Of a stretch of DNA of 64,000 nt, positions 12,749 through 63,558 are shown piece by piece. Below the pieces are notes generated by a model. The model worked only from the letters and a program-made list of their open reading frames with translations. It made no database searches and was not told the origin of the DNA. The position numbers and the translations under genes were made by a program. Position 1 is the first letter of the stretch. Each line of letters opens with the position of its first letter. The stretch is from contig BLLK01000019.1 in the NCBI GenBank assembly GCA_021927905.1, forward strand, positions 620,001 to 684,000, read 5' to 3'. The stretch is from Chaetoceros tenuissimus (Eukaryota > Bacillariophyta > Thalassiosirophyceae > Chaetocerotales > Chaetocerotaceae).

Positions 12749-13462
12749 AGTAAGTTTGTACACACACACAGAATAACTAATAACACCGTAATTCGAAATT
12801 TAGGAATATTTAAAGATACTTACTTAGATAGGAAGGTTCTCAGTTCTCTCTGATTTCCCTACTACATTGCTATACACAAATTGAACGTTTTGGCAATGCT
12901 GACTCAGCAAGGGTAATTTAGACATATTCAAAGTTAAGGAAGGTTCTCGGTTCTCTCTACTTTCCCTACATTACTTAGATCTCAAAGGAATGTTTCTCTT
13001 TTTTTAAAACGGGGATCTTCAAGTGAAGAACAATCAATCAAAAAATAGGAAAGAAAAGAACAGAAACGCAAGCTTATTGAAGTATCAGAGAATCCGTTTT
13101 CCTGCAACCTAAGCCATCATCATCATGAAGAATGTGCACAACTTATTAAGATGACAAATCAATAGGAATTATAGCAAGTAAAACTTAATTTAGACTTTTG
13201 AAAAATGGCAAAGGTTCTCGGCTCGCTCTCCTTCCATTCCTCCTTTCCCTGCATGGCCAAATGGTCAGTCATCACTATGGTGACACTGCCATACATTCTT
13301 CGAACAAATTCAAAGCTCAGAGGAACTTAGGACCTTCAACATCATTGTGAATCATTTAATTTTCCCAACAGCTGTCAACAAAGAACAGAAGGAGAAAAAC
13401 ATATGTTCCTTGTAGTGTAGTCGAGTCTTGGAACCGAAATAAAGATGTTTTCATTCACAATG
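12749..13462. repeat. Decayed ~110-bp repeats and duplicated flank, copy 1
   Basis: Contains three decayed copies (12831, 12951, 13211) of a block starting GGAAGGTTCTCGGTTCTCTC and continuing TTTCCCTACATTG, two of them followed by a segment with GCTGACTCAGCA. From about 13,050 to 13,440 the sequence matches 20,070-20,460 (shared landmarks: CAACCTAAGCCAT, CTTCAACA, ACAAAGA, GAGAAAAACATATG). No gene is visible. Confidence 0.7.
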
Positions 13463-14708: not shown

Positions 14709-15374
14709 ATGCTAGAACCACAAACTCATTCTAGAGACTCAATGATTAACCTTGAAATTCTACGTGATAGAAGAGTGATTGAGAGCAAGAGTTGCTTCTG
14801 GTCTATGTTACAATCTCATGCGGAGAAATTGACACTGTACTACTTCGATGAAGAGTCACGCATAAAAAATTCTTTATCTCATTTAGATGAAGAATGTATT
14901 GATGATAGTGATGCTCTCGTACTGTTAGCTCTCATAAGAAATCAAGCGACTTGGCTGCTTGAATATATCACTCACAACCTAGAACTCCTTGCTACCTCAA
15001 TTCTTGCATTTGATGAATATCACAGTGTAGATACATATGAGGAAGAGATGACATACTTAGAAGATACTTATCCATTCATCGATGGACATAGACTACATAC
15101 AATATTGAATTATGTTGACGGGTGGACTTTAGATCTTCAAGAAGAAAATCAAGAGCAGAAGGAGGATTTTATTCCTTCGCCAGGACGGCGGAGAAATAGC
15201 AGTAGGAGCATCAATTCTACAAAGAGTAAACGTTCGAGTGTAAGGAGTGAGAGCCAGCTGCATAATAAAGGCTCATTAAGAAATGGTAGTTTCAGAGGTT
15301 TCATATTCCTGCAACGACTAGGAATCAAGAGCAAGTCATCATCATCATGGAGAATACAACATACAATATCATAG
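14709..15374 (+). CDS. Gene B copy 2, unknown diatom protein
   Basis: 221 residues. It differs from copy 1 mainly by an Ile/Val change near residue 71, a short stretch after the EENQEQ motif, one inserted residue in the Ser/Arg-rich region, and the last few residues. Identity at silent sites is as high as at replacement sites, so this is a very recent copy or has been homogenised by gene conversion. Function unknown, as for copy 1. Confidence 0.7.
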   Translation: MLEPQTHSRDSMINLEILRDRRVIESKSCFWSMLQSHAEKLTLYYFDEESRIKNSLSHLDEECIDDSDALVLLALIRNQATWLLEYITHNLELLATSILAFDEYHSVDTYEEEMTYLEDTYPFIDGHRLHTILNYVDGWTLDLQEENQEQKEDFIPSPGRRRNSSRSINSTKSKRSSVRSESQLHNKGSLRNGSFRGFIFLQRLGIKSKSSSSWRIQHTIS

Positions 15375-15507
15375 AGTGCCATCCTCATGAGGAATTTATA
15401 TACATGCAGAATAACTAATAACATCATAATTTAGGTAGTTATAGGACTTGGTTCTCTCTACTCAATTACGTAATGCCCAAATGTAAAGCTTCGCCAGTGC
15501 TTTGTTG
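15375..15507. repeat. Decayed ~110-bp repeat unit, left of transposon array
   Basis: One repeat unit (GGTTCTCTCTACT at about 15453, GCTTCGCCAGTGCTTTG at about 15488) is cut at 15515 by the transposon array and continues after it at 19655. Confidence 0.7.
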
Positions 15508-15515
15508 GCAATGAG

Positions 15516-16888
15516 GGCTTTGGTACCACTACGGGAGTTGATATTAAACTAGAAGCGAAAAAAAGGAGGAAAAAAGAGGGAGATTTTTCATTTCCAATGA
15601 CTTGCAGTCATTTTCAGTTCTCTTTCATTATTTGGCGTACGAAATTGAAAACATGACAACAATGCTCAATCGAATCGATGAAGGTATTACAAAAATACTA
15701 GATAGACTAATCCTGAATAAGATTTATATGTAGAATCTTTCCGCTTGAGCAAGATTTTGTATTTTTGTCGAATTTTATAGCGAAAGCAACAATCCTTTTC
15801 ATCTTATTGATTAGAACTAATTATTTTCTCCAATGAATACTTTTATAGCGCTTTTATTGTGTTCTATGGTAGAAATGTGCAATTCTTTTTATTGACATCG
15901 TATAGTATAGAAATAACAATGACGATTTGAAAATGATTTCAGTTGATCCCATTATAGTCGTCAAAAACATCTTTCTGCGTATCCTATATAATCTAAACCA
16001 TTTTGTGTCGAGATATAATAGCCAGTTGATTGTTGAGCTGTGTATTTTTAAATGTCAGCCGTTCCTTTTCGCAAGAGTATCCATTGGATACTTGCCCTCA
16101 TCTTGAATTTTTATACCCCTGACATTCGCACAAAGCACTGAATCGAGAATCTGATCAAGAAATTGCAACCTCATTTGATTCAATTCCTGCGTCGGTGAAT
16201 CCTTTTTGCCTTCTGTGGTAAGTGGTAGCATCAATTAATCCCTACACATCCAACAATTAAGCTGCTGCTCAAGATGCCTCTATTGGGAACAGGAGACTCA
16301 TCTTTAGTCTCACTTTCACATTATTGACAGACACATCCGATAATCAAATTGAAACAAATATGTGTAACCGTAATCATGAAAGAGAAAAGAGTCTTCCTCG
16401 CAAAGATATAATGATGCACCTTCTTGACCTATCTTTACTAACCCGTAGCAGTTGCTTATATTTCCTCATTTTCCTGTATCCTTTTCGTATACTTCGAACC
16501 TTTCACACTACATCTTCGCAGCTAAGTTATTTTTAGTATATATCAAATTGGTATTTGAGTATGATACAGTGAAATGAATTCACAATAGCATTTCGAATGA
16601 ATGAAAATATGAGTTTCAATGTATCTTGATAATGACTGCGGAAAAATGAGGTCATAGCACATTTAGTTCGAGTAAGTACGGCAGTTAAATCGAGCTTAAA
16701 AAAGTTCTCGTTATCATTAATAAAGCTCTCTTTATCATTAATAAGGAGCGATGTGATTGGCTATCAGAGCATTATCATTAATAAATGCATAGAGTTAGCT
16801 CTGTCAACGCATTGACACCGACGTACTTGAGTACCAGCACTAACAACTGATATTATTAATGATAAGCTCCCGTAGTGGTTCTGTAGCC
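15516..16888. mobile_element. Non-autonomous TIR element, unit 1
   Basis: The left end reads GGCTTTGGTACCACTACGGG and the right end, reverse complemented, reads GGCTACAGAACCACTACGGG: a 22-bp imperfect terminal inverted repeat. The last 180 bp holds four copies of TTATCATTAATAA (16711, 16732, 16772 forward; 16853-16865 reverse), the kind of subterminal motif transposases bind. The longest frame (70 codons at 16324) has no domain. Non-autonomous. Confidence 0.85.
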
Positions 16889-16894
16889 GCAATG

Positions 16895-18267
16895 GGCTTT
16901 GGTACCACTACGGGAGTTGATATTAAACTAGAAGCGAAAAAAAGGAGGAAAAAAGAGGGAGATTTTTCATTTCCAATGACTTGCAGTCATTTTCAGTTCT
17001 CTTTCATTATTTGGCGTACGAAATTGAAAACATGACAACAATGCTCAATCGAATCGATGAAGGTATTACAAAAATACTAGATAGACTAATCCTGAATAAG
17101 ATTTATATGTAGAATCTTTCCGCTTGAGCAAGATTTTGTATTTTTGTCGAATTTTATAGCGAAAGCAACAATCCTTTTCATCTTATTGATTAGAACTAAT
17201 TATTTTCTCCAATGAATACTTTTATAGCGCTTTTATTGTGTTCTATGGTAGAAATGTGCAATTCTTTTTATTGACATCGTATAGTATAGAAATAACAATG
17301 ACGATTTGAAAATGATTTCAGTTGATCCCATTATAGTCGTCAAAAACATCTTTCTGCGTATCCTATATAATCTAAACCATTTTGTGTCGAGATATAATAG
17401 CCAGTTGATTGTTGAGCTGTGTATTTTTAAATGTCAGCCGTTCCTTTTCGCAAGAGTATCCATTGGATACTTGCCCTCATCTTGAATTTTTATACCCCTG
17501 ACATTCGCACAAAGCACTGAATCGAGAATCTGATCAAGAAATTGCAACCTCATTTGATTCAATTCCTGCGTCGGTGAATCCTTTTTGCCTTCTGTGGTAA
17601 GTGGTAGCATCAATTAATCCCTACACATCCAACAATTAAGCTGCTGCTCAAGATGCCTCTATTGGGAACAGGAGACTCATCTTTAGTCTCACTTTCACAT
17701 TATTGACAGACACATCCGATAATCAAATTGAAACAAATATGTGTAACCGTAATCATGAAAGAGAAAAGAGTCTTCCTCGCAAAGATATAATGATGCACCT
17801 TCTTGACCTATCTTTACTAACCCGTAGCAGTTGCTTATATTTCCTCATTTTCCTGTATCCTTTTCGTATACTTCGAACCTTTCACACTACATCTTCGCAG
17901 CTAAGTTATTTTTAGTATATATCAAATTGGTATTTGAGTATGATACAGTGAAATGAATTCACAATAGCATTTCGAATGAATGAAAATATGAGTTTCAATG
18001 TATCTTGATAATGACTGCGGAAAAATGAGGTCATAGCACATTTAGTTCGAGTAAGTACGGCAGTTAAATCGAGCTTAAAAAAGTTCTCGTTATCATTAAT
18101 AAAGCTCTCTTTATCATTAATAAGGAGCGATGTGATTGGCTATCAGAGCATTATCATTAATAAATGCATAGAGTTAGCTCTGTCAACGCATTGACACCGA
18201 CGTACTTGAGTACCAGCACTAACAACTGATATTATTAATGATAAGCTCCCGTAGTGGTTCTGTAGCC
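16895..18267. mobile_element. Non-autonomous TIR element, unit 2
   Basis: Same as unit 1 shifted by 1379 bp. I found no difference from unit 1 in the parts compared by eye. Flanked on both sides by GCAATG. Confidence 0.85.
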
Positions 18268-18273
18268 GCAATG

Positions 18274-19646
18274 GGCTTTGGTACCACTACGGGAGTTGAT
18301 ATTAAACTAGAAGCGAAAAAAAGGAGGAAAAAAGAGGGAGATTTTTCATTTCCAATGACTTGCAGTCATTTTCAGTTCTCTTTCATTATTTGGCGTACGA
18401 AATTGAAAACATGACAACAATGCTCAATCGAATCGATGAAGGTATTACAAAAATACTAGATAGACTAATCCTGAATAAGATTTATATGTAGAATCTTTCC
18501 GCTTGAGCAAGATTTTGTATTTTTGTCGAATTTTATAGCGAAAGCAACAATCCTTTTCATCTTATTGATTAGAACTAATTATTTTCTCCAATGAATACTT
18601 TTATAGCGCTTTTATTGTGTTCTATGGTAGAAATGTGCAATTCTTTTTATTGACATCGTATAGTATAGAAATAACAATGACGATTTGAAAATGATTTCAG
18701 TTGATCCCATTATAGTCGTCAAAAACATCTTTCTGCGTATCCTATATAATCTAAACCATTTTGTGTCGAGATATAATAGCCAGTTGATTGTTGAGCTGTG
18801 TATTTTTAAATGTCAGCCGTTCCTTTTCGCAAGAGTATCCATTGGATACTTGCCCTCATCTTGAATTTTTATACCCCTGACATTCGCACAAAGCACTGAA
18901 TCGAGAATCTGATCAAGAAATTGCAACCTCATTTGATTCAATTCCTGCGTCGGTGAATCCTTTTTGCCTTCTGTGGTAAGTGGTAGCATCAATTAATCCC
19001 TACACATCCAACAATTAAGCTGCTGCTCAAGATGCCTCTATTGGGAACAGGAGACTCATCTTTAGTCTCACTTTCACATTATTGACAGACACATCCGATA
19101 ATCAAATTGAAACAAATATGTGTAACCGTAATCATGAAAGAGAAAAGAGTCTTCCTCGCAAAGATATAATGATGCACCTTCTTGACCTATCTTTACTAAC
19201 CCGTAGCAGTTGCTTATATTTCCTCATTTTCCTGTATCCTTTTCGTATACTTCGAACCTTTCACACTACATCTTCGCAGCTAAGTTATTTTTAGTATATA
19301 TCAAATTGGTATTTGAGTATGATACAGTGAAATGAATTCACAATAGCATTTCGAATGAATGAAAATATGAGTTTCAATGTATCTTGATAATGACTGCGGA
19401 AAAATGAGGTCATAGCACATTTAGTTCGAGTAAGTACGGCAGTTAAATCGAGCTTAAAAAAGTTCTCGTTATCATTAATAAAGCTCTCTTTATCATTAAT
19501 AAGGAGCGATGTGATTGGCTATCAGAGCATTATCATTAATAAATGCATAGAGTTAGCTCTGTCAACGCATTGACACCGACGTACTTGAGTACCAGCACTA
19601 ACAACTGATATTATTAATGATAAGCTCCCGTAGTGGTTCTGTAGCC
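18274..19646. mobile_element. Non-autonomous TIR element, unit 3
   Basis: Same as units 1 and 2. Its right end abuts the full 8-bp target duplication GCAATGAG at 19647-19654. Confidence 0.85.
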
Positions 19647-19654
19647 GCAATGAG

Positions 19655-20480
19655 AATTGATACTTTGACATTTAGAAAGTTTTAGGAAGGTTCTCAGTTC
19701 TCTTTGCTTTCCCTTCATTTGTATTGCCCACGTCTGCAAAACTTCGCCGGTGCTGAGTCAGCATTACCAAATCCGTTTTAAAATGGGAAGGTTTTTGGTT
19801 GTCTCGACCTCCCCTACATTGTTTAATACCTAACGCCTCCTAAGCTTCGCTGGTGGCTTGTCAGCACTGACCAACTTGATTCTTTAGACATTTAGAAAGT
19901 AGATAGGAAGGTCCTTGGTTCTCTCTACATTCCTTAAGCCCAAATGTTAAAAGCTTCCTCAGCATTGATGAGCCCGAGTCAGCACTAACAAACTTGATAC
20001 AGTTCCCAATCTAACTCAGAGGAAGGTTCCTTTTTGAAAACGGAATGAGAAATCAGATAGGAAAAGAGTGTGAAGAAGCATTCAATTTTCTTTGCAACCT
20101 AAGCCATTATCATAAGGAGAAAACAATATGAATAACATGACAGATTTTGAATAGTTAGAATAAGATTAATATCTTTCAATATCTTTCACATTTGGAAAGT
20201 ATACGTAGGAAGGGTTCTCGGTTCTCTCATCTTTCCCTACATTGCTGAGTCATCACTCCGAAGACACTTTCATACATCTTCCAAAAGAAATTCAAAAGTT
20301 TAAGGAACTCAGGATCTTCAACAGCAAGTTACGAATCTTTCTATTCTTTCAGCAGCTGCCCAACAAAGAGTAGAATGGAGAGAAAACATATGCTTCTTCT
20401 TTGTCTTGTTGGGAAGGTTCTACAACCAGAAACCAGAGATTTTTGATGTTTTCATTTACGAACAAAACTTTGGTCTTTTC
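19655..20480. repeat. Decayed ~110-bp repeats and duplicated flank, copy 2
   Basis: Four further copies of the GGAAGGTTCTC / CCCTACATTG block lie at about 19684, 19787, 19906 and 20208, alternating with a segment containing CTTCGCTGGTG, GTCAGCACT and AACTTGAT, then GACATTTAGAAAG. From about 20,070 the sequence parallels 13,050-13,440. This is the 3' flank of the second A/B duplication unit. Confidence 0.7.
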
Positions 20481-21606: not shown

Positions 21607-23232
21607 ATGTCCGACACTGAAAGCGAAAGCACTGAACCCTCCTCCGTTCTAGACTATATTGAAGTCATAGAGAATGAACTATCGCAGATGAAAACTTTGA
21701 TAGAAGATGGATCTAGAACTATACTAGAATATGCTGTATTTTGCGAGAAAAGCTGCAAACAAATTCAAAGTATAGTTTCCTCTATGCAGGAGAAGATGGC
21801 CGACATCGGTAGCTTTTACTATGACGACTTGAAACATTTTTTACAAAGTTATTCTTTATATCCAAGAGACGAATTTTGGCAAATGTTTGAAGATAAACTG
21901 AATGAGATTGGAGATGATGTTGAGTGCAGAAAGAAGGCGCTGCAATTTTCTGATGAGGGAGGAATGAGAAATCTTATTCACCATGTTTGTGCTTTCAACC
22001 CGCCAGTATCTACGTTAGAGTTACTGATTGAAAAGACCACTTTTCCGGAGAAAAAGATTTGGTCTTTTAAGTACAATCACTACTCACAAACAAGCGATGG
22101 AGAATATCCATTACATATATTGTTGCAAAATGGGGCATCTTTTGAGACTGTCAAATTCTTGGTTGAAAAAGATACTTCGAATAATAAGGAAACTTTGCAG
22201 TGTCCGGATTGGAGCGGGCGTATTACATTAGTGGGAGCGCTTGTTTCTAACAGGGACAGCTATGATGACTTTGATGAATACATGAAAATTCTCAAGTACA
22301 TTGTGAAGCAGTCAGAGGATGCTAGTCCCTTTCGCAAAAGTTTAGTATACCAACATACAAAAGATGATTATGAAAGTTACCCAATCAATCTTTGTTGGGA
22401 AAAATATAAAGAGGATGGAGTTCCCGATTCAGAAATAATCGAGAAAGAAGATATTCAGTATTTGCTGAAAGCAATGTGCTATTACTGTGGTGAGAGAGGA
22501 TGGGGAAGGCCAGTAGTGCCAAGTAGGAATATTGATGATATTTCTCTTCTTGAAGCATTCTTACGAAGTTACATTTGCTTTCAGAAATCTGTTCTAAAAA
22601 ATGACATATTCCCGAAGCTTCTTCGTAGTGATGGCGAATATAGAGATTGCAGAGATTATCTATTCTCAAAAGATGCAGATGGAAAATATGCAATATTCAA
22701 GTTGCTGTCATATGAGAACTACTGTCTCATTCCTTCTTGTACTGTATCAGATTCAAAATCAATTGGCAAATTAATTGACGTCATACGTGTGCTTCTCCAT
22801 TTTGCTCCTGATGTTGCCAAAATTAAGGATGACGAAGGTTTCTTACCATTACATATTATTTCAGATGCCCAGCTGTTTCCGTATTTTAATCGTTTTAGGC
22901 GTAACCAACGATGGAAACTTGCAAAGATATTTGTCGAAGCAAATCCTGATGCTGTTTCAACTATAGATGGTAGAACCGGACTTTTACCATTTATGCTTGC
23001 TATGAGAGATTATAGGCTAAGAGAGAAAACAGAAAGGCCATCAAGATATGATTTTCCTGAAATCGACCCCGAGGATTATTCTGATTATGATTCTGACGAT
23101 GGTCGTACTTTCACAAGTCTTACTGCATCATATCTCATGCTACGACAATGCCCTGATGTAATCCAAGATTCTGGTAAATCTATTGAGAGGTCGACAAAGC
23201 GCCAAAAAATCGAAAAAGATGTCTCGAAATAG
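21607..23232 (+). CDS. Ankyrin-like repeat protein, tandem paralog 1
   Basis: 541 residues from an ATG at 21607. The N-terminal 75 residues are helical (IENELSQMKTLIEDGS). Then come degenerate ankyrin-type units of the kind expanded in diatoms: LIHHVCAFNPPVSTLELLIE, GEYPLHILLQNGASFETVKF, INLCWEKYKEDG, DDEGFLPLHIISDA and AVSTIDGRTGLLPFMLAMRD. The tail is basic (KSIERSTKRQKIEKDVSK) and may act as a nuclear localisation signal. No catalytic motif. Intact. Its only close relative here is the copy at 24867. Confidence 0.8.
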   Translation: MSDTESESTEPSSVLDYIEVIENELSQMKTLIEDGSRTILEYAVFCEKSCKQIQSIVSSMQEKMADIGSFYYDDLKHFLQSYSLYPRDEFWQMFEDKLNEIGDDVECRKKALQFSDEGGMRNLIHHVCAFNPPVSTLELLIEKTTFPEKKIWSFKYNHYSQTSDGEYPLHILLQNGASFETVKFLVEKDTSNNKETLQCPDWSGRITLVGALVSNRDSYDDFDEYMKILKYIVKQSEDASPFRKSLVYQHTKDDYESYPINLCWEKYKEDGVPDSEIIEKEDIQYLLKAMCYYCGERGWGRPVVPSRNIDDISLLEAFLRSYICFQKSVLKNDIFPKLLRSDGEYRDCRDYLFSKDADGKYAIFKLLSYENYCLIPSCTVSDSKSIGKLIDVIRVLLHFAPDVAKIKDDEGFLPLHIISDAQLFPYFNRFRRNQRWKLAKIFVEANPDAVSTIDGRTGLLPFMLAMRDYRLREKTERPSRYDFPEIDPEDYSDYDSDDGRTFTSLTASYLMLRQCPDVIQDSGKSIERSTKRQKIEKDVSK

Positions 23233-24866: not shown

Positions 24867-26465
24867 ATGTCCGACACTGAAAGCAATGAAACCTCTTTTC
24901 TAGACATTATTGGACGTATGGAGGATGAACTATCGCAGATAAAAACTTTAATATTAGAAGGATCTAGAACTGAACTAGAAAATGCTGTATTGTGTGAGAA
25001 ATGCTGGCTACAAATTGAAGGAATGGTATCTGAAATGCAGCACAAGATTGGCGAAATTAGTAACGATTACCATGAAAGCTTGAGAAATTTTTTACTTACT
25101 ACTCAGTCTGAGGAATATCCAAGAGACGATTTTTGGCTAAAGTTTGAAAATAAACTGAATGAGATTGGAGATGATGTTGAGTGTAGAAAGAAAGCACTGG
25201 AACATTATGACAGCACAGATGGAAAAAGGCTGATTCATCATGTTTGCAGTATGAATCCACCAGTATCTACTTTAGAGTTACTGGTTGAGCTCACATCCTT
25301 TCCAGACCCAGACTATTATGAGAAGTACAACCACTTGTCAGAAGCAGGCGATGGAGAATATCCAGTGCATATATTGTTACAAAATGGGGCATCTTTTGAT
25401 AATGTTAAATTTCTACTTGAAAAAGATACTTCAAAGGAAACTTTGAACAATTTTCGTCCTGGAAGTATATCAACAGTTGGAACGCTTATTCTTCACAAGG
25501 ATAGTTACGACGACTTTAATGAATACATGAAAATTCTCAAGTACACTGTGCAGCAATCAGCCGATGATGACTCCTACAAAGAAATTTTATTTCATAGAAA
25601 TGTGAAGGAAGAGAAAAAAAGTCTCCCAATTCATCTTTGTTGGGAAAAATATAAAGAGGAGGGATTTCTCGATTCAGATATAATCGAGAAAGAAGATATT
25701 CAGTATTTGCTGAAAGCAATGTGCTATTATGCGGATGTCAGGAAAGAAAAATGTAACAGGGCATATACAAAAGTTAAGGAAGGGGAAGAAGAGAATACAA
25801 TCAAAAGCATTGAGGATATTTCTCTTCTTGAAGCTCTCTTAAGGTCTTCCCAATGCTTTGACATGCCAATTATAGAAAATGTACTTTCGAAGCTTCTCAA
25901 TGGTGACAATGAACACAGAGACTGTAGAGAGTACCTTTTCACAAAAGACTCAGAAGGGAAATATCCAATATTTAGATTGTTACAATATAGTGACTATAGC
26001 ATCTTTCCTGACTGGTCTTTAAATTTTTTGGAATTTCCTCGTATGATTCGAACGCTTCTCAAGTTTGCTCCTGATCTTTCCCAAATTAAGGATGACGAAG
26101 GATTCCTACTTTTGCATATTGTTTCTGATTCGCGACTTCTTACCTATCTAGGACGGATACGTAGGGAACTCGTAGAGATGATTGTCAAAGCAAATCTTGA
26201 TGCTGTTTCAACTATAGATGGTCGAACTGGACTTTTACCATTTATGCTTGCTGTGAGAGGCGCACCAGAGTATTGGTTGAATCAGAAAACGGAAAAAACA
26301 ACCAAATACGACTTTCCTGAAGTTGACTTTGAGGAGGATTTTAATTGCAATCTTTCAGCATCATATCTCCTGCTACGACAATGCCCTGATGTAATCCAAG
26401 TTTCTAGTAAATCTATTGAGAGGTCGAAAAAGCGCCAAAAAATCGAAAAAGATGCCTCGAAATAG
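24867..26465 (+). CDS. Ankyrin-like repeat protein, tandem paralog 2
   Basis: 532 residues from an ATG at 24867. It aligns with paralog 1 from end to end: MSDTES, ELSQIKTLILEGSRTELE, GEYPVHILLQNGASFDNVKF, EKEDIQYLLKAMCYY, AVSTIDGRTGLLPFMLAVRG and KSIERSKKRQKIEKDASK. It lacks the acidic insert YSDYDSDDGRTF near the end of paralog 1 and has a Lys/Glu-rich insert near 25740-25810. Intact despite the transposon 70 bp upstream of its start, so its expression may differ from that of paralog 1. Confidence 0.8.
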   Translation: MSDTESNETSFLDIIGRMEDELSQIKTLILEGSRTELENAVLCEKCWLQIEGMVSEMQHKIGEISNDYHESLRNFLLTTQSEEYPRDDFWLKFENKLNEIGDDVECRKKALEHYDSTDGKRLIHHVCSMNPPVSTLELLVELTSFPDPDYYEKYNHLSEAGDGEYPVHILLQNGASFDNVKFLLEKDTSKETLNNFRPGSISTVGTLILHKDSYDDFNEYMKILKYTVQQSADDDSYKEILFHRNVKEEKKSLPIHLCWEKYKEEGFLDSDIIEKEDIQYLLKAMCYYADVRKEKCNRAYTKVKEGEEENTIKSIEDISLLEALLRSSQCFDMPIIENVLSKLLNGDNEHRDCREYLFTKDSEGKYPIFRLLQYSDYSIFPDWSLNFLEFPRMIRTLLKFAPDLSQIKDDEGFLLLHIVSDSRLLTYLGRIRRELVEMIVKANLDAVSTIDGRTGLLPFMLAVRGAPEYWLNQKTEKTTKYDFPEVDFEEDFNCNLSASYLLLRQCPDVIQVSSKSIERSKKRQKIEKDASK

Positions 26466-30297: not shown

Positions 30298-32924
30298 ATG
30301 CCTTACCAACACTCTCACTCTCACCTTCTGCCATCACTCTCACAATGCAATAGAATGCCACCACTTTGCAGTGGTTGTGGAGGAAGATTCGATACCCGTG
30401 ATAAGTTTGAGAGACTTTCCAAAATTCAGGAAAGTAGAACCAAAGCTGATGAAACTAAGGGAGATACCGGAACTATACTCGTTGTACGTTGCAATTATTG
30501 TATTCTTACACACAGCTTATACCTCTGTAATGATGAAACAACAATTCAACGCGCAACCAACAAGATACCTGAAGGACGTAATGGTGACCGATTGAAACTT
30601 TCAGTCGATCATACTATTAAAGAAGTGAAGCGTGCAAAGGAAGCAAGGAAACCGAAAGATCCTCCTTTGCTTGATAAGACTAATCAAACTACTAAAGGAG
30701 TGAAGCGTGCAAAGAAAGCAAAGAAACCAAAAGGTCCTCCTCTCCTTGATGATAAGACTAAACAAGCTTGCAAAATTTTGAATCGAGCCCTCCCTGATTT
30801 TGTGAAAAATGGAAAGGGAAGAGACTACATGGCGAAGAATCCAGGATGCTCCGCTTACGACTTTATTTTCGAACGCATTTCTCCTAGTATGATCTGTAGT
30901 GTTTTAAAAAGTTGTGCCCCAGAGTTCATGAAAGCTAGAGGTCTTCACGATGTTGAGGAAAAATGTCAATGCTCTCGAGGTTGTAAACACATTCTTCCAA
31001 CCGAAGAGAGTGAGAGAAGCTTTTTACCAGTCTTGAAAGGAAGTCCAATTCCTGTTGCAAAATGTTGTCTCTATACACTAATTTGGAATGATGACCCTCG
31101 TATCCCCACAAGCCTTGCAAAAGAAAAGAAGTCTGTTAAAGGTGGCATGGTAGCTTACAATGAAAATAACCCGAAAGGGCCAACAGCTGTTCAACTTTGT
31201 AAGCAAGGTAATATTTATCCACTCGAGGGTTTCTTCTCCTCTCCCCGTCAAGCGGAGAAACTTGGTGGTATTCAGAAAGCAAAGGAAAGGCTTGGATTCT
31301 ATCTTCAAGATAAGAAAAAGGATAATTCAAGATCTTCATTTTCTTCTAGGAAAACTGATGAAGATAGAAGGTTACAGAATAGAGAAATAGCCAAAACGGC
31401 GAGACAGACAGCGCATTACAACTGCCCTGATGAAATGTTCAAAAGAACTATGAGATCTAGAAGAGGCCAGGTAATGAGAGGTAAGTCTTCAACCGTTCTA
31501 TTACTTTTCAAGTTTTGAAACCTTTTAACAAGTAGTTGTTTGTAGGTGTTCTAGGTAATGAAAGTCCTCTTACTCTTTTACTTTTGAATGCAACAAATGG
31601 CTTTGTCAATGGATTCATGCTGCAGTATGCCATTATGTTTCTTCTTGAGGATGGGGTTGATGTTTCGAGTAAAGAAGAGCTTGACAAGGAACTTGAAATC
31701 AAGACCCAAGGTGATGAAATAGTCCCAATGAACAGTTTGGAAGACTACGCCATAATGCTAAGTCTCATGAATTTTCAGTTTTCACCTGGAACAGTAAATC
31801 AAAAAAAGTATACTTACACTACTAAGGAGTGTGTTGAGATTCTCATTGAACTGATCAAGATATTTAATGTCTTACATTACAAACAAGTCCAAACAAAAGA
31901 ACAAGGAATGCAGTTCGCGAAGGACAATCGAGAAAGATTGAAAAAATTGTTTGATGAATCAAATAAATTCAGAACCACCGATATCAACAAGGTCGAGTGG
32001 ATCACTAAGAATGAAGTGACAAGAATCATTTCAAAAGCTGGGCTTCCTAAATTAGAGTTGTCTTTGACAAGTAAGCCATGGAATGACCTCAGCGAAGAAG
32101 AGCAGCGAATTCATCGTTTGAATGGTTATAAAGCTGCGGAAAAGTATTTCAACCAGTGGAATAGATACGGGTACGGTGCAACACGCTCAAGAGAATTGAT
32201 TAAGGAAATGGAAGAAGACGAAAAGAAACCTGCAGCAATTAGCAGCAAGAAGAGCAGTTCAACCAGTAGCAGCAAGAAGAGCAGTTCAACCAGTAGCAGC
32301 AAGAAGAGTAGTTCAACCAGTAGCAGCAAGAAGAGCAGTTCGACCATTAGCGGCTGGATGAGCAGTTCAACCAGTAGCAGCAAGAAGAGCAGTTCGACCA
32401 TTAGCGGCTGGATGAGTAGTTCAACCAGTAGCAGCAAGAAGAGTAGTTCAACCAGTAGCAGCAAGAAGAGCAGTTCGACCATTAGCGGCTGGATGAGCAG
32501 TTCAACCAGTAGCAGCAAGAAGAGCAGTTCAACCAGTAGCAGCAAGAAGAGTAGTTCAACCAGTAGCAGCAAGAAGAGTAGTTCAACCAGTAGCAGCAAG
32601 AAGAGCAGTTCAACTACTAGCAGCAAGAAGAGCAGATTCAAAACGACCACTGCAACTTCAAAGACATCTGCAACAAGAAAGAGAAAGTTCACCTCAACTT
32701 CTGTGTCTAAAAAGAAGGCAAAGAAAGGATTTCTCGATGATTCGGATGAAGAGTTTTTGGAGGACTCTTCTGTCGAGTCTCATTTCGATGAAGATAAGAT
32801 GTTGGGGGATGACGAATCTATTGTATCCATGCCTGATAGAGATAGATGGATTTGCAGTACATGTACTTATGCAAACGAGAAAAAACATAGTAGATGCAAA
32901 ATGTGTAATACCTTTCGAGAATAG
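30298..32924 (+). CDS. RanBP2-type zinc-finger protein with Ser/Lys repeat; two exons
   Basis: Exons 30298-31480 and 31546-32924; a 65-nt intron (GTAAGT...TTTGTAG) splits a Gly codon. 853 residues. An alternative ATG at 30355 would give MPPLCSGCGG as the start. The N-terminus has paired cysteines CSGCGG and CNYC that could bind zinc. Next come Lys-rich repeats (EVKRAKEARKPKDPPLL and GVKRAKKAKKPKGPPLL), a unique domain with further Cys pairs (CQCSRGCKH), a second unique domain in exon 2, 14 units of SSSTSSSKK, a basic stretch, an acidic stretch, and a C-terminal RanBP2/NZF finger: W-x-C-x2-C, then N, then C-x2-C (WICSTCTYANEKKHSRCKMC). NZF fingers bind ubiquitin or RNA. Probably nuclear. Role unknown. 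Confidence 0.75.
32253..32630 (+). repeat. 27-bp coding minisatellite, 14 units
   Basis: Exactly 14 units of 27 bp. Eleven encode SSSTSSSKK or a one-residue variant; three encode SSSTISGWM, at unit positions 4, 6 and 9. The interspersed variant points to repeated unequal exchange of unit pairs. Confidence 0.9.
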
Positions 32925-39046: not shown

Positions 39047-41614
39047 TTAAGTGCCATATAAAATGAAAGTTGTCAGAATTACCAAATGCGAGGATAACCA
39101 AAACGAAAATGATTTAGAAGCAGACTTTTGTAGAGTACCATTGTTGGACGGTATTGCTGATTTGCTATTGCTCGGTAATGATGATGGACTCGAAGACGTA
39201 GTAGTGCTTGGAGATTCTGTAGGATCATGAGACGGCATGGCTGATTTGCTATTACTAGGTAATGACGATGGCCTTGAAGACATGGTAATGCTTGGAGATT
39301 CTGTAGGATCATGAGACGGTAAGGCTGATTTGCTATTGCTTGGTAATGATGATGGACTCGAAGACGTAGTAGTGCTTGGAGATTCTGTAGGATCATGAGA
39401 CGGTAAAGCTGAGTTGCCATTGCTCGGTAATGATGATGGCCTTGAAGACACGGTAGTGCTTGGAGATTCTGTAGGATCATGAGACGGTAAAGCTGAGTTG
39501 TCATTGCTCGGCAATGATGATGGTCGGGAGGATATAATAGCACTTGGTAGTGGAGATGAAGAAGGTGGCTCTTTGTGAGATGATAATGTAGTTGGAAAGG
39601 CCGAATGTATGCTTGATGGTACAGAACTTGGGACGTCTGTTGCAGTTTGTGAGGTAGTAGTAGATGGCGAATACGAAGGTCTTGAGCTAGATATAGATGA
39701 AGGTTCTGATGAAGAGGAACCAGACGGCTCTAGTGAGGGTAGAAAAGATGGTTCAAACGATTTTCGCATCGAGGGCTTACTACTGAAAGAAGGTAAATAA
39801 CTTGAAGATGGGGACTGTGAAGGTTGTGGACTTGATGTCGGACTAGGGCTTAAAGATGGTTCATGAGATAAAAATCGATCAGGATAGTACGGGTTTTCAC
39901 CAGAATCTTTGTACAAACGGCATGAATCTCGAAATCTTCCACATACTGAATTGCATTTAATTTCACCAAGAATCATAGTTTCACATCTAGCCCCATCATC
40001 TTCTATGAAGTATTCACAAGTTACATTCATTCCTTGATCAGGTTCAGCTGCTAAAAGTTCAAAGTGCCCCTCAACATCTAAAGGGCAAACTCCAATCTGA
40101 CGCAACTTTGAACTCAGATGCTCTTTTAAATTGTTGTAAAACCAGGAGTCCTCGCGAAGTAAATTTCTTTCTTCCTTCACATCATTTTTGAGATTAAACA
40201 GATATTCTTCCTTGGGATTAGTATATGTGATGACGTATTTGTAGTGACCGTATCGGATAGCCTGCGACTGTGACTGCTTATCCCAAATCCAAATGCCATA
40301 GTATTTTCGATCACTGGCAGACTGCTCCGATCTAGCATGATTAGCAAAACTTATCGAATCTTGAGCAGATCCATTTGGAATATCGAAACCAGCGAAGTCT
40401 CCAAGGGTAGCATATATATCATTGAGACCAACTAATCCTGTTCTCTTTTCGTCAGCTGGCAAAATTCCATCGTATCGCATAATCAAGGGTATGGTATGTC
40501 CACCTTCCCAAATTTCGTTCTTACCACCGCGGAAATGACGACCAAATTCATCTCTATGACCAAAATGAACAAGGCCTCCATTGTCGCTTGTGAAGATGAT
40601 TAATGTATTGTTCATTAAACTACGATCTTCAATAGACGATATCATTGACCCTACAACCAAATCCATTTCATATAACATATCTAGATGAGGATGACTAAAA
40701 GTCCCTGCTACAGGAGTACCATCGGTATAGAACTTTGTTGGAGAATGAGGTGCATGGACTTGTCCAAGACCCACATATAAAAAGAAAGGATCTGCTGTAT
40801 CGTGGTTCTCTAAGAAATCATCTACTTCCTTGACTAGTCTCATATTATATTCTGTTGAGTCCCAATTAGGATCTCCTTCACCTGCTTTTGAAATGATAGA
40901 TTCGCCATTGTCATTTACTGTATACGTTCCCTTCTGCCAAAACTTGATGTTATCTATATCGGTTTGCAAATGGCCATTACGAAAAAATGAGTACGGTGCA
41001 GACTGAATTCCTGACATTGTATAGAATGATTCGTCAAACCCAATATCGTTTGGACCACCTTCCATAGGTTTGTTCCAATCAATATTGCAACAGCTCAATG
41101 GGCGTTGTTTATCCTCACTATATGTTCCTCCAGATGGCACTCTACCTCCTAAATGCCATTTGCCGAACATACCAGTATGGTAATTTAATTGATCCTTGAG
41201 TACTTGTGCAATACTTTTCTGGTTATTGATGAATTGATTTTGTCCCGCTTTGAAATTCCATGATCCATTTTTAAGGAAACCTCTATGCGGATAGTTTCCT
41301 GACAACAGCATGTATCTACTCGGTGCACATAGAGGTGAAGCATGAGCATCCATAAACGTAACACCCTTAGACTGAAGCTTTTGGATATTTGTCATAGGGA
41401 CTATGTTGTCGCCCCAATAAGGGATATCAGATGTCCCTACATCATCAGCAAGTATAAGAAGGATGTTTGGTTTATTCCGTTCTAAAATTTTTCGTCCAGA
41501 GTTGTTATCTTGTATCTTTTTCACAATTGAATTTTCTACTTTATTTGCATTACATAGAAGTGCAAGGAGCAGCAACTGAGGAAGAATAATCATAATGGCA
41601 AAGACCGCTTTCAT
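39047..41614 (-). CDS. Secreted sulfatase with Ser/Pro repeat tail
   Basis: 855 residues from the ATG at 41614 (MKAVFAIMIILPQLLLLALL, signal peptide); the frame extends six codons further only through a TTG. The S1 sulfatase signature is present: metal ligands in LLILADDVGTSD (D57, D58), C96 in SPLCAPSR (C-x-P-S-R, the cysteine converted to formylglycine), GKWHLGGR, and FTSDNGG. A Cys-rich segment (RCETMILGEIKCNSVCGRF) follows the catalytic domain, then about 260 Ser/Pro/Thr-rich residues with 28-residue tandem repeats. The end is hydrophobic (WLSSHLVILTTFILYGT), like a GPI-attachment signal or membrane anchor. Expected role: removal of sulfate from sulfated polysaccharides at the cell surface or wall. 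Confidence 0.9.
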   Translation of the reverse strand: MKAVFAIMIILPQLLLLALLCNANKVENSIVKKIQDNNSGRKILERNKPNILLILADDVGTSDIPYWGDNIVPMTNIQKLQSKGVTFMDAHASPLCAPSRYMLLSGNYPHRGFLKNGSWNFKAGQNQFINNQKSIAQVLKDQLNYHTGMFGKWHLGGRVPSGGTYSEDKQRPLSCCNIDWNKPMEGGPNDIGFDESFYTMSGIQSAPYSFFRNGHLQTDIDNIKFWQKGTYTVNDNGESIISKAGEGDPNWDSTEYNMRLVKEVDDFLENHDTADPFFLYVGLGQVHAPHSPTKFYTDGTPVAGTFSHPHLDMLYEMDLVVGSMISSIEDRSLMNNTLIIFTSDNGGLVHFGHRDEFGRHFRGGKNEIWEGGHTIPLIMRYDGILPADEKRTGLVGLNDIYATLGDFAGFDIPNGSAQDSISFANHARSEQSASDRKYYGIWIWDKQSQSQAIRYGHYKYVITYTNPKEEYLFNLKNDVKEERNLLREDSWFYNNLKEHLSSKLRQIGVCPLDVEGHFELLAAEPDQGMNVTCEYFIEDDGARCETMILGEIKCNSVCGRFRDSCRLYKDSGENPYYPDRFLSHEPSLSPSPTSSPQPSQSPSSSYLPSFSSKPSMRKSFEPSFLPSLEPSGSSSSEPSSISSSRPSYSPSTTTSQTATDVPSSVPSSIHSAFPTTLSSHKEPPSSSPLPSAIISSRPSSLPSNDNSALPSHDPTESPSTTVSSRPSSLPSNGNSALPSHDPTESPSTTTSSSPSSLPSNSKSALPSHDPTESPSITMSSRPSSLPSNSKSAMPSHDPTESPSTTTSSSPSSLPSNSKSAIPSNNGTLQKSASKSFSFWLSSHLVILTTFILYGT
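39146..39532 (-). repeat. 84-bp coding minisatellite in the sulfatase tail
   Basis: Four complete 28-residue units of the type SSRPSSLPSNSKSALPSHDP-TESPSTTT and one partial unit. They differ in a few positions (NDN/NGN/NSK; TTV/TTT/ITM). The antisense strand is also open here, which is a by-product of the repeat. Confidence 0.9.
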
Positions 41615-60043: not shown

Positions 60044-60883
60044 ATGAGTGTCGCCACCGTCGATGGACTTGTGACTCTTTTTTATGACGGCTCGAAGAAA
60101 CTATGGAACTACGAACTAGATGAAGAGTGGGAGGACCAATTAGCAGAGCACCACGAGGATGAAGATTTTTCGGAGTGGGAATCATGGGATCTATCCAATG
60201 AATGTAAACGATATGTGAGAGAGCGACAATCATGGCAGCAGATAATTGTGGTGGAAGGGGTGACAGAGATTACGGAAGCCACCTTTTCTCTTTGTTTTAA
60301 TATCCAGAGAGTCATACTTGCCAGCACTGTGATTCAGATTCATAAATTTGCTTTCTTTCGGTGCACAAGTCTCGTTTATATCAAGTGGTCAGTCAACTTG
60401 GAGTTTATTGGATATAAATCATTTGATCAGTGTAACTTCTCAAGTGTCTTTCTTCCACCAACATGCAGAATAGTCCAACTATGGGCATTTGCAGAAAATA
60501 AAAACTTGAATATTTTCAATATTCCACAAGATACAGAGTTTGAAGGCTTTCCTTTCATATTATCAAAATTTGTTGAAAAATGTCCATTTCGGAACAGTCC
60601 TACATTATCATATTCTGCTGATTGTGAAGAAGCAAATACCTGGATGAAAAACATCAACAATCACGAAGACTATGCCTTACACAGAGTATGCTCATCCTAT
60701 CGGCCATTGAAAGAAATAATCATGTCAATCATTGAAAAGAAAGGGCTAGGGGCATTCAAAACAGAGAACAGTATTGGCATCACCCCGTCGCAGTACTTGA
60801 AGGAAAATCCGTACACAGATGTGACGGAGCAGGATATCATTCATGATTACCTCATGAAGATGCTGGGAGAGGTGGTTGTATAG
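60044..60883 (+). CDS. BspA-type leucine-rich-repeat protein, paralog 1
   Basis: 279 residues. The ATG at 60044 (MSVATVDGLVTLFYDG) aligns with the starts of the other two copies; the frame is open five codons further only from a TTG. After the family signature ATVDGLVTLFYDGSKKLW comes an acidic stretch, then LRR_5 (BspA-like) units of about 23 residues: IIVVEGVTEITEATFSLC, RVILASTVIQIHKFAFFRC, LEFIGYKSFDQCNFSSVFL, and PPTCRIVQLWAFAENKNL. The last 70 residues form a conserved helical domain (TWMKNINNHEDYALHRVCSS, IGITPSQYLKENPY). Probably binding or scaffolding; no signal peptide. Large families of this type are known in Chaetoceros. Confidence 0.85.
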   Translation: MSVATVDGLVTLFYDGSKKLWNYELDEEWEDQLAEHHEDEDFSEWESWDLSNECKRYVRERQSWQQIIVVEGVTEITEATFSLCFNIQRVILASTVIQIHKFAFFRCTSLVYIKWSVNLEFIGYKSFDQCNFSSVFLPPTCRIVQLWAFAENKNLNIFNIPQDTEFEGFPFILSKFVEKCPFRNSPTLSYSADCEEANTWMKNINNHEDYALHRVCSSYRPLKEIIMSIIEKKGLGAFKTENSIGITPSQYLKENPYTDVTEQDIIHDYLMKMLGEVVV

Positions 60884-61398: not shown

Positions 61399-62232
61399 AT
61401 GAGAGTCGCTACAGTCGATGGTCTTGTGACCCTTTTTTACGACGGCTCGAAGGAACTATGGAACGAGGAATTACATGAAGAGTGGGAGTATGAATTTGAG
61501 GAGCACGAGGATAAAGAGATTGTAAATTGGGAATCATGGAATCTATCTTATGAATGCAAACAGTATTTGAGAGAAAGATTTCCGTGGCAGCAAATCATAG
61601 TGATGGAAGGCGTTACTGTGATTCCCAAATACACCTTCTCTTATTGTTGGAATATCCAGAGAGTCACATTTGCCAACACGGTAATTCGAATTGAAAGAGA
61701 GGCTTTCCTTCGGTGCAAAAGTCTCATTGACATTCAGTGGTCAGACAACTTGGAGTATATTGGAATTCAATCATTCGAGAAATGTAACTTGTCAAGCGTC
61801 TTTCTCCCACCAAGATGTAGATTTGTTTCAGGATGGGCATTTGGATTCAATGAAAACTTGACTATTTTCAATGTTCCACAAGATACAGTGCTTGAGAATG
61901 GTTTACCTTTCATAAGAGCAAAATTTTTTGACAAATCTCCATTTCCTAACACTTTTCGAACATGTATTGATCATCCCGAAGAAATAAATACCTGGATGAA
62001 AAACATCAACAATCACAAAGACTATGCTTTGCACAGAGCATGCTCGTCCTATCAACCATTGAAAGAAGTAATCATGTCAATCATCGAAAACAAAGGCCTA
62101 CGTGCATTTAAAACAGAGAACAGCATAGGTATAACTCCGTCGCAATACTTGAAGGAAAATCCGTACACAGATGTGACGGAGAATGATATCATTCATGATT
62201 ACCTCATAAAGATGATGGGAGAAGTTGTATAG
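61399..62232 (+). CDS. BspA-type leucine-rich-repeat protein, paralog 2
   Basis: 277 residues from an ATG at 61399 (MRVATVDGLVTLFYDG). LRR units: IIVMEGVTVIPKYTFSYC, RVTFANTVIRIEREAFLRC, LEYIGIQSFEKCNLSSVFL and PPRCRFVSGWAFGFNENL. The C-terminal helical domain is the most conserved part (TWMKNINNHKDYALHRACSS). It differs from paralog 1 mainly in the region just after the repeats (VLENGLPFIRAKFF), the part most likely to determine ligand choice. Confidence 0.85.
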   Translation: MRVATVDGLVTLFYDGSKELWNEELHEEWEYEFEEHEDKEIVNWESWNLSYECKQYLRERFPWQQIIVMEGVTVIPKYTFSYCWNIQRVTFANTVIRIEREAFLRCKSLIDIQWSDNLEYIGIQSFEKCNLSSVFLPPRCRFVSGWAFGFNENLTIFNVPQDTVLENGLPFIRAKFFDKSPFPNTFRTCIDHPEEINTWMKNINNHKDYALHRACSSYQPLKEVIMSIIENKGLRAFKTENSIGITPSQYLKENPYTDVTENDIIHDYLIKMMGEVV

Positions 62233-62718: not shown

Positions 62719-63558
62719 ATGAGGGTCGCCACCGTCGATGGTCTCGTGACTCTCTTTTATGACGGATCGAAGGAACTCTTCAATTCTCAACTAGAAAGGG
62801 AATGGGAGAATGAATTTGCAGAGTATGGGCAAATAGACTTTGGGAATTGGGAATCATGGGATCTATCCAATGATTGCAAGCAGTATTTGAGAGAAAGGTC
62901 TTCATGGGAGCAGATAATAGTGGTGGAAGGGGTCACTATGATTCCCATATTTACCTTCTACAATTGTGCGAATATCCAAAGAGTCATACTTTCCAACACG
63001 GTAATTCGAGTTCAATATTATGCTTTCAAATGTTGCAAAAGTCTTGTTTATATGAAACTTTCAATAAACTTGGAACAAATCGACGACTGTGCATTTGAGG
63101 GATGTAATCTTGCAAGCGTCTTTCTTCCACCAAGATGCAGATTTGTTGGAGGATGGGCATTTGGACACAATCACAACTTGAATATTGTCAGTGTTGCCCA
63201 GGATACAGAGATTGGTAGTGGTGCTTTCTTCAGAGTAAAATTTCTTGGAAAATTTCCATTTCATCACAGTTTATATGAATGGCCTCAATATTACGAACAT
63301 TATGAAGAAATACATACCTGGATGAAAAACATCAACAATCACGAAGACTATGCCTTACACAGAGCATGTTCATCCTATCAGCCACTGAAAGAAGTGATCA
63401 TGTCAATTATCGAAAACAAAGGCATACGGGCATTTAAAACAGAGAACAGCATTGGCATCACCCCGTCGGAGTACTTGAAGGAAAACCCGTACACAGAAGT
63501 TACCGAGCAGGATATCATTCATGATTACCTCATGAAGATGATGGGAGAGGTTGTATAG
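62719..63558 (+). CDS. BspA-type leucine-rich-repeat protein, paralog 3
   Basis: 279 residues. The ATG at 62719 is chosen by alignment with the other copies; an upstream in-frame ATG-like start would add nine residues (MTLSISEGR) that overlap the conserved leader. LRR units: IIVVEGVTMIPIFTFYNC, RVILSNTVIRVQYYAFKCC, LEQIDDCAFEGCNLASVFL and PPRCRFVGGWAFGHNHNL. The variable part is EIGSGAFFRVKFLGKFPFHH with an extra WPQYYEHYEE segment. C-terminal domain as in the other copies. Confidence 0.85.
   Translation: MRVATVDGLVTLFYDGSKELFNSQLEREWENEFAEYGQIDFGNWESWDLSNDCKQYLRERSSWEQIIVVEGVTMIPIFTFYNCANIQRVILSNTVIRVQYYAFKCCKSLVYMKLSINLEQIDDCAFEGCNLASVFLPPRCRFVGGWAFGHNHNLNIVSVAQDTEIGSGAFFRVKFLGKFPFHHSLYEWPQYYEHYEEIHTWMKNINNHEDYALHRACSSYQPLKEVIMSIIENKGIRAFKTENSIGITPSEYLKENPYTEVTEQDIIHDYLMKMMGEVV

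Follow-up and report, generated by a model that had tools for sequence, protein, structure and literature searches.

In Drosophila melanogaster, dimers of transposable elements (TEs) are common, and hobo has reached 16 tandem copies (McGurk and Barbash 2018, as summarised in a 2025 review, PMC12628747). According to that review, which cites the same work, insertion site preference is the main route to dimers in Drosophila, and one mechanism stated there is repeated insertion at one site, enabled by target duplications. Class II elements are described as commonly making head-to-tail double insertions (PMC12368964), and tandem dimers and trimers arising from insertion beside an existing copy are mentioned in PMC9659126. 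Non-autonomous elements with terminal inverted repeats (TIRs) have also been tied to tandem repeats, for example, Xstir, miDNA4 and Tetris, in which internal parts of the element are tandemised (PMC9659126, PMC12628747, PMC4079207).

The array described here lies in a window of 64,000 nucleotides, the whole stretch of DNA analysed. Like the Drosophila dimers and the hobo array, it consists of DNA transposon copies standing head to tail at one target site, with subsequent expansion (PMC12628747, PMC12368964), whereas its host is probably a diatom and its spacers hold only six of the eight bases of the target duplication; a full duplication between copies is what the model of re-insertion into a target duplication would predict. 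It shares with Xstir, miDNA4 and Tetris the link between a non-autonomous TIR element and tandem repeats, but here the whole element from TIR to TIR plus 6 nt was tandemised. The 6-of-8 spacer and the probable diatom host are what is particular to this case. The initial annotation had called tandem amplification of such an element uncommon, which does not agree with the Drosophila literature, and a TE tandem array as a route to satellite DNA is an already established idea. A literature search found no paper that combines diatoms, Chaetoceros, MITEs, tandem arrangement and terminal inverted repeats, which does not by itself prove that nothing has been published. The locus offers a clean snapshot of the first steps from DNA transposon to tandem repeat, probably outside animals. 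Moreover, the 6-of-8 spacer means that simple recombination between target duplications cannot have founded the array, and it fixes the breakpoint at the element end, so that spacers from further arrays of this family can be used to test the mechanism.

Self-comparison of positions 15508-19654 resolved three 1373-bp units, arranged head to tail and 100% identical over their full length, with start-to-start spacings of 1379 and 1379 bp (Table 1). The unit, its ends, the target duplication and the spacers are direct readings. The 8-mer GCAATGAG flanks the array with the same letters on both sides, and this match cannot be extended in either direction. Both internal junctions carry GCAATG, the first six of the eight bases of the border 8-mer; the probability of this given 6-mer is 2.1e-4 from the base composition of the window, and an identical triplet of 1.4 kb cannot have arisen by chance. 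These readings agree exactly with the initial annotation, which had described three identical head-to-tail copies inside a single target duplication, bordered by a perfect 8-bp repeat and joined by GCAATG. Tandem Repeats Finder did not list the array, the longest period being 500 here. Complete element copies within one target site make this a tandem TE array; the full target duplication between copies that characterises the strict form of repeated insertion was absent from both junctions, which hold 6 of 8 bases, and three copies fall short of the long, many-copy arrays of satellite DNA. In addition, DNA folding of positions 16851-16932 placed spacer 1 in the loop of a strong TIR-TIR hairpin (-18 kcal/mol, z -6.42).

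Table 1. Coordinates of the array and associated features in the window
Feature	Position	Strand	Basis
Left target site duplication GCAATGAG, 8 bp	15508..15515	+	Direct reading; same as 19647-19654
Unit 1, 1373-bp copy read as a non-autonomous DNA transposon	15516..16888	+	100% identical to units 2 and 3
Left terminal inverted repeat of unit 1	15516..15542	+	18/22 and 21/27 positions match the right end
Right subterminal region of unit 1, TTATCATTAATAA x4 exact	16696..16865	+	Same in the other two units
Right terminal inverted repeat of unit 1	16862..16888	-	18/22 and 21/27 positions
Internal spacer 1, GCAATG	16889..16894	+	Six 5' bases of the 8-bp target duplication; hairpin loop
Unit 2	16895..18267	+	Letter-identical to units 1 and 3
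Internal spacer 2, GCAATG	18268..18273	+	Direct reading
Unit 3	18274..19646	+	Letter-identical to units 1 and 2
Right target site duplication GCAATGAG	19647..19654	+	Same as 15508-15515
Degenerate intergenic repeat, empty-site paralogue	19842..19933	+	Alignment with the joined flanks spans the insertion point

The target site before insertion was reconstructed by removing the array together with one 8-mer, joining the flanks and aligning them to the window. The joined flanks matched positions 19842-19933 across the insertion point (76% over 92 columns, E 1.4e-12), the alignment being ungapped at the point itself and having a gap of 2 bases two positions further right. They also matched positions 12856-12972 (68% over 126 columns, E 1e-11), with a 6-base gap further right. 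These two of the four non-self matches span the insertion point; the other two cover the right flank only. Because the joined flanks align across the insertion point to local repeats, the pre-insertion site was an ordinary repeat member, and on this alignment the entire array occupies a single target site. The repeat is a degenerate intergenic sequence found at about 12829, 12937, 15447, 19683, 19784, 19904 and 20207, with a core near TAGGAAGGTTCTCRGTTCTCTC and a start-to-start spacing of ~100-120 bp where tandem; the array sits in one member.

The ends of the unit are GGCTTTGGTACCACTACGGGAG and, on the opposite strand, GGCTACAGAACCACTACGGGAG, forming imperfect inverted repeats of ~22-27 bp that start with GG. 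Near the right end, TTATCATTAATAA occurs four times exactly per unit, three times in direct orientation (16711, 16732 and 16772 in unit 1) and once inverted (16853). At up to 2 mismatches, it has 18 matches in the window, 12 of them in the array, and all exact ones are in the array; this set could be candidate transposase-binding sites. The longest stop-to-stop stretch in the unit is 91 codons, the longest ATG ORF wholly inside it encodes 58 aa, and no recognisable transposase was found when the six longest stretches were compared with Pfam (best E 0.037, below the curated cut-off). Its TIRs, its target duplication of 8 bp and the lack of a recognisable transposase are the features that define non-autonomous cut-and-paste TIR transposons, and the unit is read as such an element.

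Merlin elements are defined by a TIR starting with 5'-GG and an 8- or 9-bp target duplication, and have TIRs of 24-462 bp (23-29 bp in some families) that are commonly imperfect (PMC8101967). The unit shares with Merlin, as described there, the 5'-GG start, the 8-bp target duplication and short imperfect TIRs. At the Merlin length of ~24 bp or more, 19/24 and 21/27 TIR positions match, and similarity fades past position 22. Unlike Merlin, which encodes a DDE_Tnp_IS1595 transposase, the unit has none, so its ends are compatible with the Merlin superfamily without proving membership. A GG start and an 8-bp duplication are not exclusive to Merlin.

Models for the origin of the dimer were compared letter by letter. 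The dimer is recovered by a tandem duplication whose breakpoints, counted from the element ends, are (0,+6) or (-1,+5), which places the breakpoints at the left end of the element and 6 nt beyond its right end, with a one-base (G) ambiguity. The letters E-GCAATG-E-GCAATGAG, with E for the element, also result if the exact element inserts a second time into GCAATG in direct orientation, with a 6-bp stagger and abutting the right end. Among insertion models in direct orientation, with staggers of 0-12 and end shifts of up to 3 nt, 14 fit; all of them lie at the right border and none to the left of copy 1, and the exact element fits only with a stagger of 6. The other 13 require a trimmed or extended element, two of them with an 8-bp stagger, which fits only if the second copy lacks its last 2 nt or gains one left base and lacks its last 3 nt. 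Unequal exchange between the two 8-bp duplications was ruled out as the step from monomer to dimer, as it yields E-GCAATGAG-E with an 8-bp spacer. One insertion followed by in-place amplification, as initially proposed, is supported by the single site and by a spacer that matches its own duplication, but not with simple unequal exchange between the two duplications as the founding step. The accompanying argument that three separate insertions would leave different or complete duplications was too strong, since a second insertion with a 6-bp stagger yields exactly the observed letters.

Because the spacer repeats the site's own target duplication from its first to its sixth base, amplification most likely occurred in place; a concatemer made elsewhere and then inserted was judged unlikely, as it would match these bases only by chance (2.1e-4). 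Probably, a single insertion of a non-autonomous TIR element at GCAATGAG was followed by its tandemisation at that site in two steps, a transposase-associated formation of a dimer and then exchange or slippage to a trimer. In the first step, the left end of a copy would have been joined to the flank 6 nt past the resident right end, exactly or within 1 nt. Either the same site would have received a second insertion, with a stagger of 6 bp in place of 8, or ends would have been joined aberrantly in the course of excision and repair between sister copies, and the step is ambiguous between the two. A 6-bp stagger would be irregular if the family duplication, seen here at one array, is always 8 bp. 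The break at the element end suggests a transposase rather than a random duplication. In the second step, slippage or unequal exchange of the ordinary kind between the direct repeats of 1379 bp would have turned the dimer into a trimer, which would account for the identity of both spacers. Given this identity, the shortest history has a single founding event and subsequent unequal exchange, and two insertions of the same irregular kind, while possible, need more.

The unit count of three rests on the assembly of one locus, and the units could partly be an assembly product. That the true locus holds one or two units, expanded to three by the assembler, nevertheless seems unlikely. The letter identity of the three units accords with such an expansion, and the published C. 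tenuissimus assembly was built by MaSuRCA from MiSeq and MinION reads together and then collapsed to a single haplotype by HaploMerger2 (PMC8613185), a procedure that may mis-size repeats if the window comes from it. However, a mere assembly duplication across the 8-mers would be expected to keep all eight bases, and the 2 bp missing from the spacer make it likely that one E-GCAATG-E junction or more is real and that a dimer or a circle therefore exists. A circle is the basis of another explanation, in which the element plus 6 nt of right flank was excised and circularised with a GCAATG junction, after which the resident copy took up, by recombination, a rolling-circle product or at least one circle. 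The (0,+6) breakpoints are also expected from such a junction, and identical spacers would be explained in one step, but excision of a circle and homologous reintegration at the very same locus are both required, and the sequence offers no reason to prefer this over simpler routes; we consider it quite improbable.

A replication-based tandem duplication without transposase, through template switching aided by the TIR-TIR hairpin or by 1-nt microhomology, is likewise quite improbable. The one-base (G) ambiguity at the breakpoint is consistent with it, and the fused TIRs give a strong hairpin, though this is present only after a dimer exists; a process that does not recognise element ends would break at the left terminus and 6 nt beyond the right one only by coincidence. 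Similarly little credence is given to a transposition system that routinely makes arrays, either through a circular or one-ended intermediate with ~6 nt of flank or by targeting its own right end with a shorter stagger. Tandem and circle intermediates occur for some bacterial insertion sequences, and a system of this kind would be their eukaryotic counterpart and would seed satellites directly.

The age of the array is only loosely bounded. Zero differences among three 1379-bp copies, at the Phaeodactylum tricornutum substitution rate of 4.77e-10 (PMC6604790), give an upper bound of ~1.5 million generations (95%), and gene conversion or assembly consensus could have homogenised the copies, which would loosen this bound further. 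The initial annotation had concluded a very recent amplification from the identity over 1373 bp, and "very recent" is a loose reading of it.

Relatives of the element were sought in the window and in sequence collections. At up to 3 mismatches, no other TIR cores were found in the window, all six matches being the array's own. Two TIR patterns gave 0 matches in the viral contigs, and the first pattern gave 3 matches in the genome contigs, all in prokaryote records, against 7.5 expected for uniform bases. Within the 7.2-8.0 kb covered at each of these loci, two (L001 and L003) had no second TIR core at up to 2 mismatches. The remaining one (L002) had a second core with 2 mismatches, which lies 5.3 kb upstream on the opposite strand and is ordered such that the two cores do not enclose an element. 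When the unit was compared with the three loci by Blastn, the ends alone aligned (E 0.008-0.32). All three were dropped as chance. The unit had no match among phages and plasmids. The lack of a relative above chance is as expected, because the collections searched hold viral, prokaryote and plasmid records. Additionally, no Rfam family reached its gathering threshold in positions 15000-20200.

The GC content along the window was 35-41% in 2-kb steps. The window contains 29 ATG ORFs of at least 200 aa, and eight of the 10 scanned against Pfam had matches at E up to 0.001. These were ankyrin repeats, TPR, sulfatase, a urea transporter with EF-hands, kinesin, LRR_5, RING and, below its curated cut-off, a RanBP zinc finger. 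The window is read as eukaryotic nuclear genome. C. tenuissimus is reported to have a GC content of 38.9% and abundant LRR5, RING, sulfatase and ankyrin genes (PMC8613185), and the window resembles the genome described there in both respects.

Several other repeats were observed in the window. A local tandem segmental duplication comprises two ORF pairs (10814-11525/13478-14189 and 11839-12793/14438-15431) in blocks that are 72.6% and 90.2% identical, and the transposon array begins ~77 bp beyond its right edge. Two tandem paralogous genes (21607-23232 and 24867-26465) are 72% identical at the DNA level, and the ORF at 24867-26465 had no Pfam match at E 0.001. Three tandem genes (60044-60883, 61399-62232 and 62719-63558) look alike by eye; the last, the only one of the three scanned against Pfam, encodes a BspA-type LRR_5 protein. 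Moreover, two tandem repeats with periods divisible by three lie within ORFs: a 27-bp repeat of 14.9 copies (32240-32641) in the ORF at 31617-32924, and an 84-bp repeat of 4.5 copies (39147-39523) in the C-terminal part of a sulfatase ORF.
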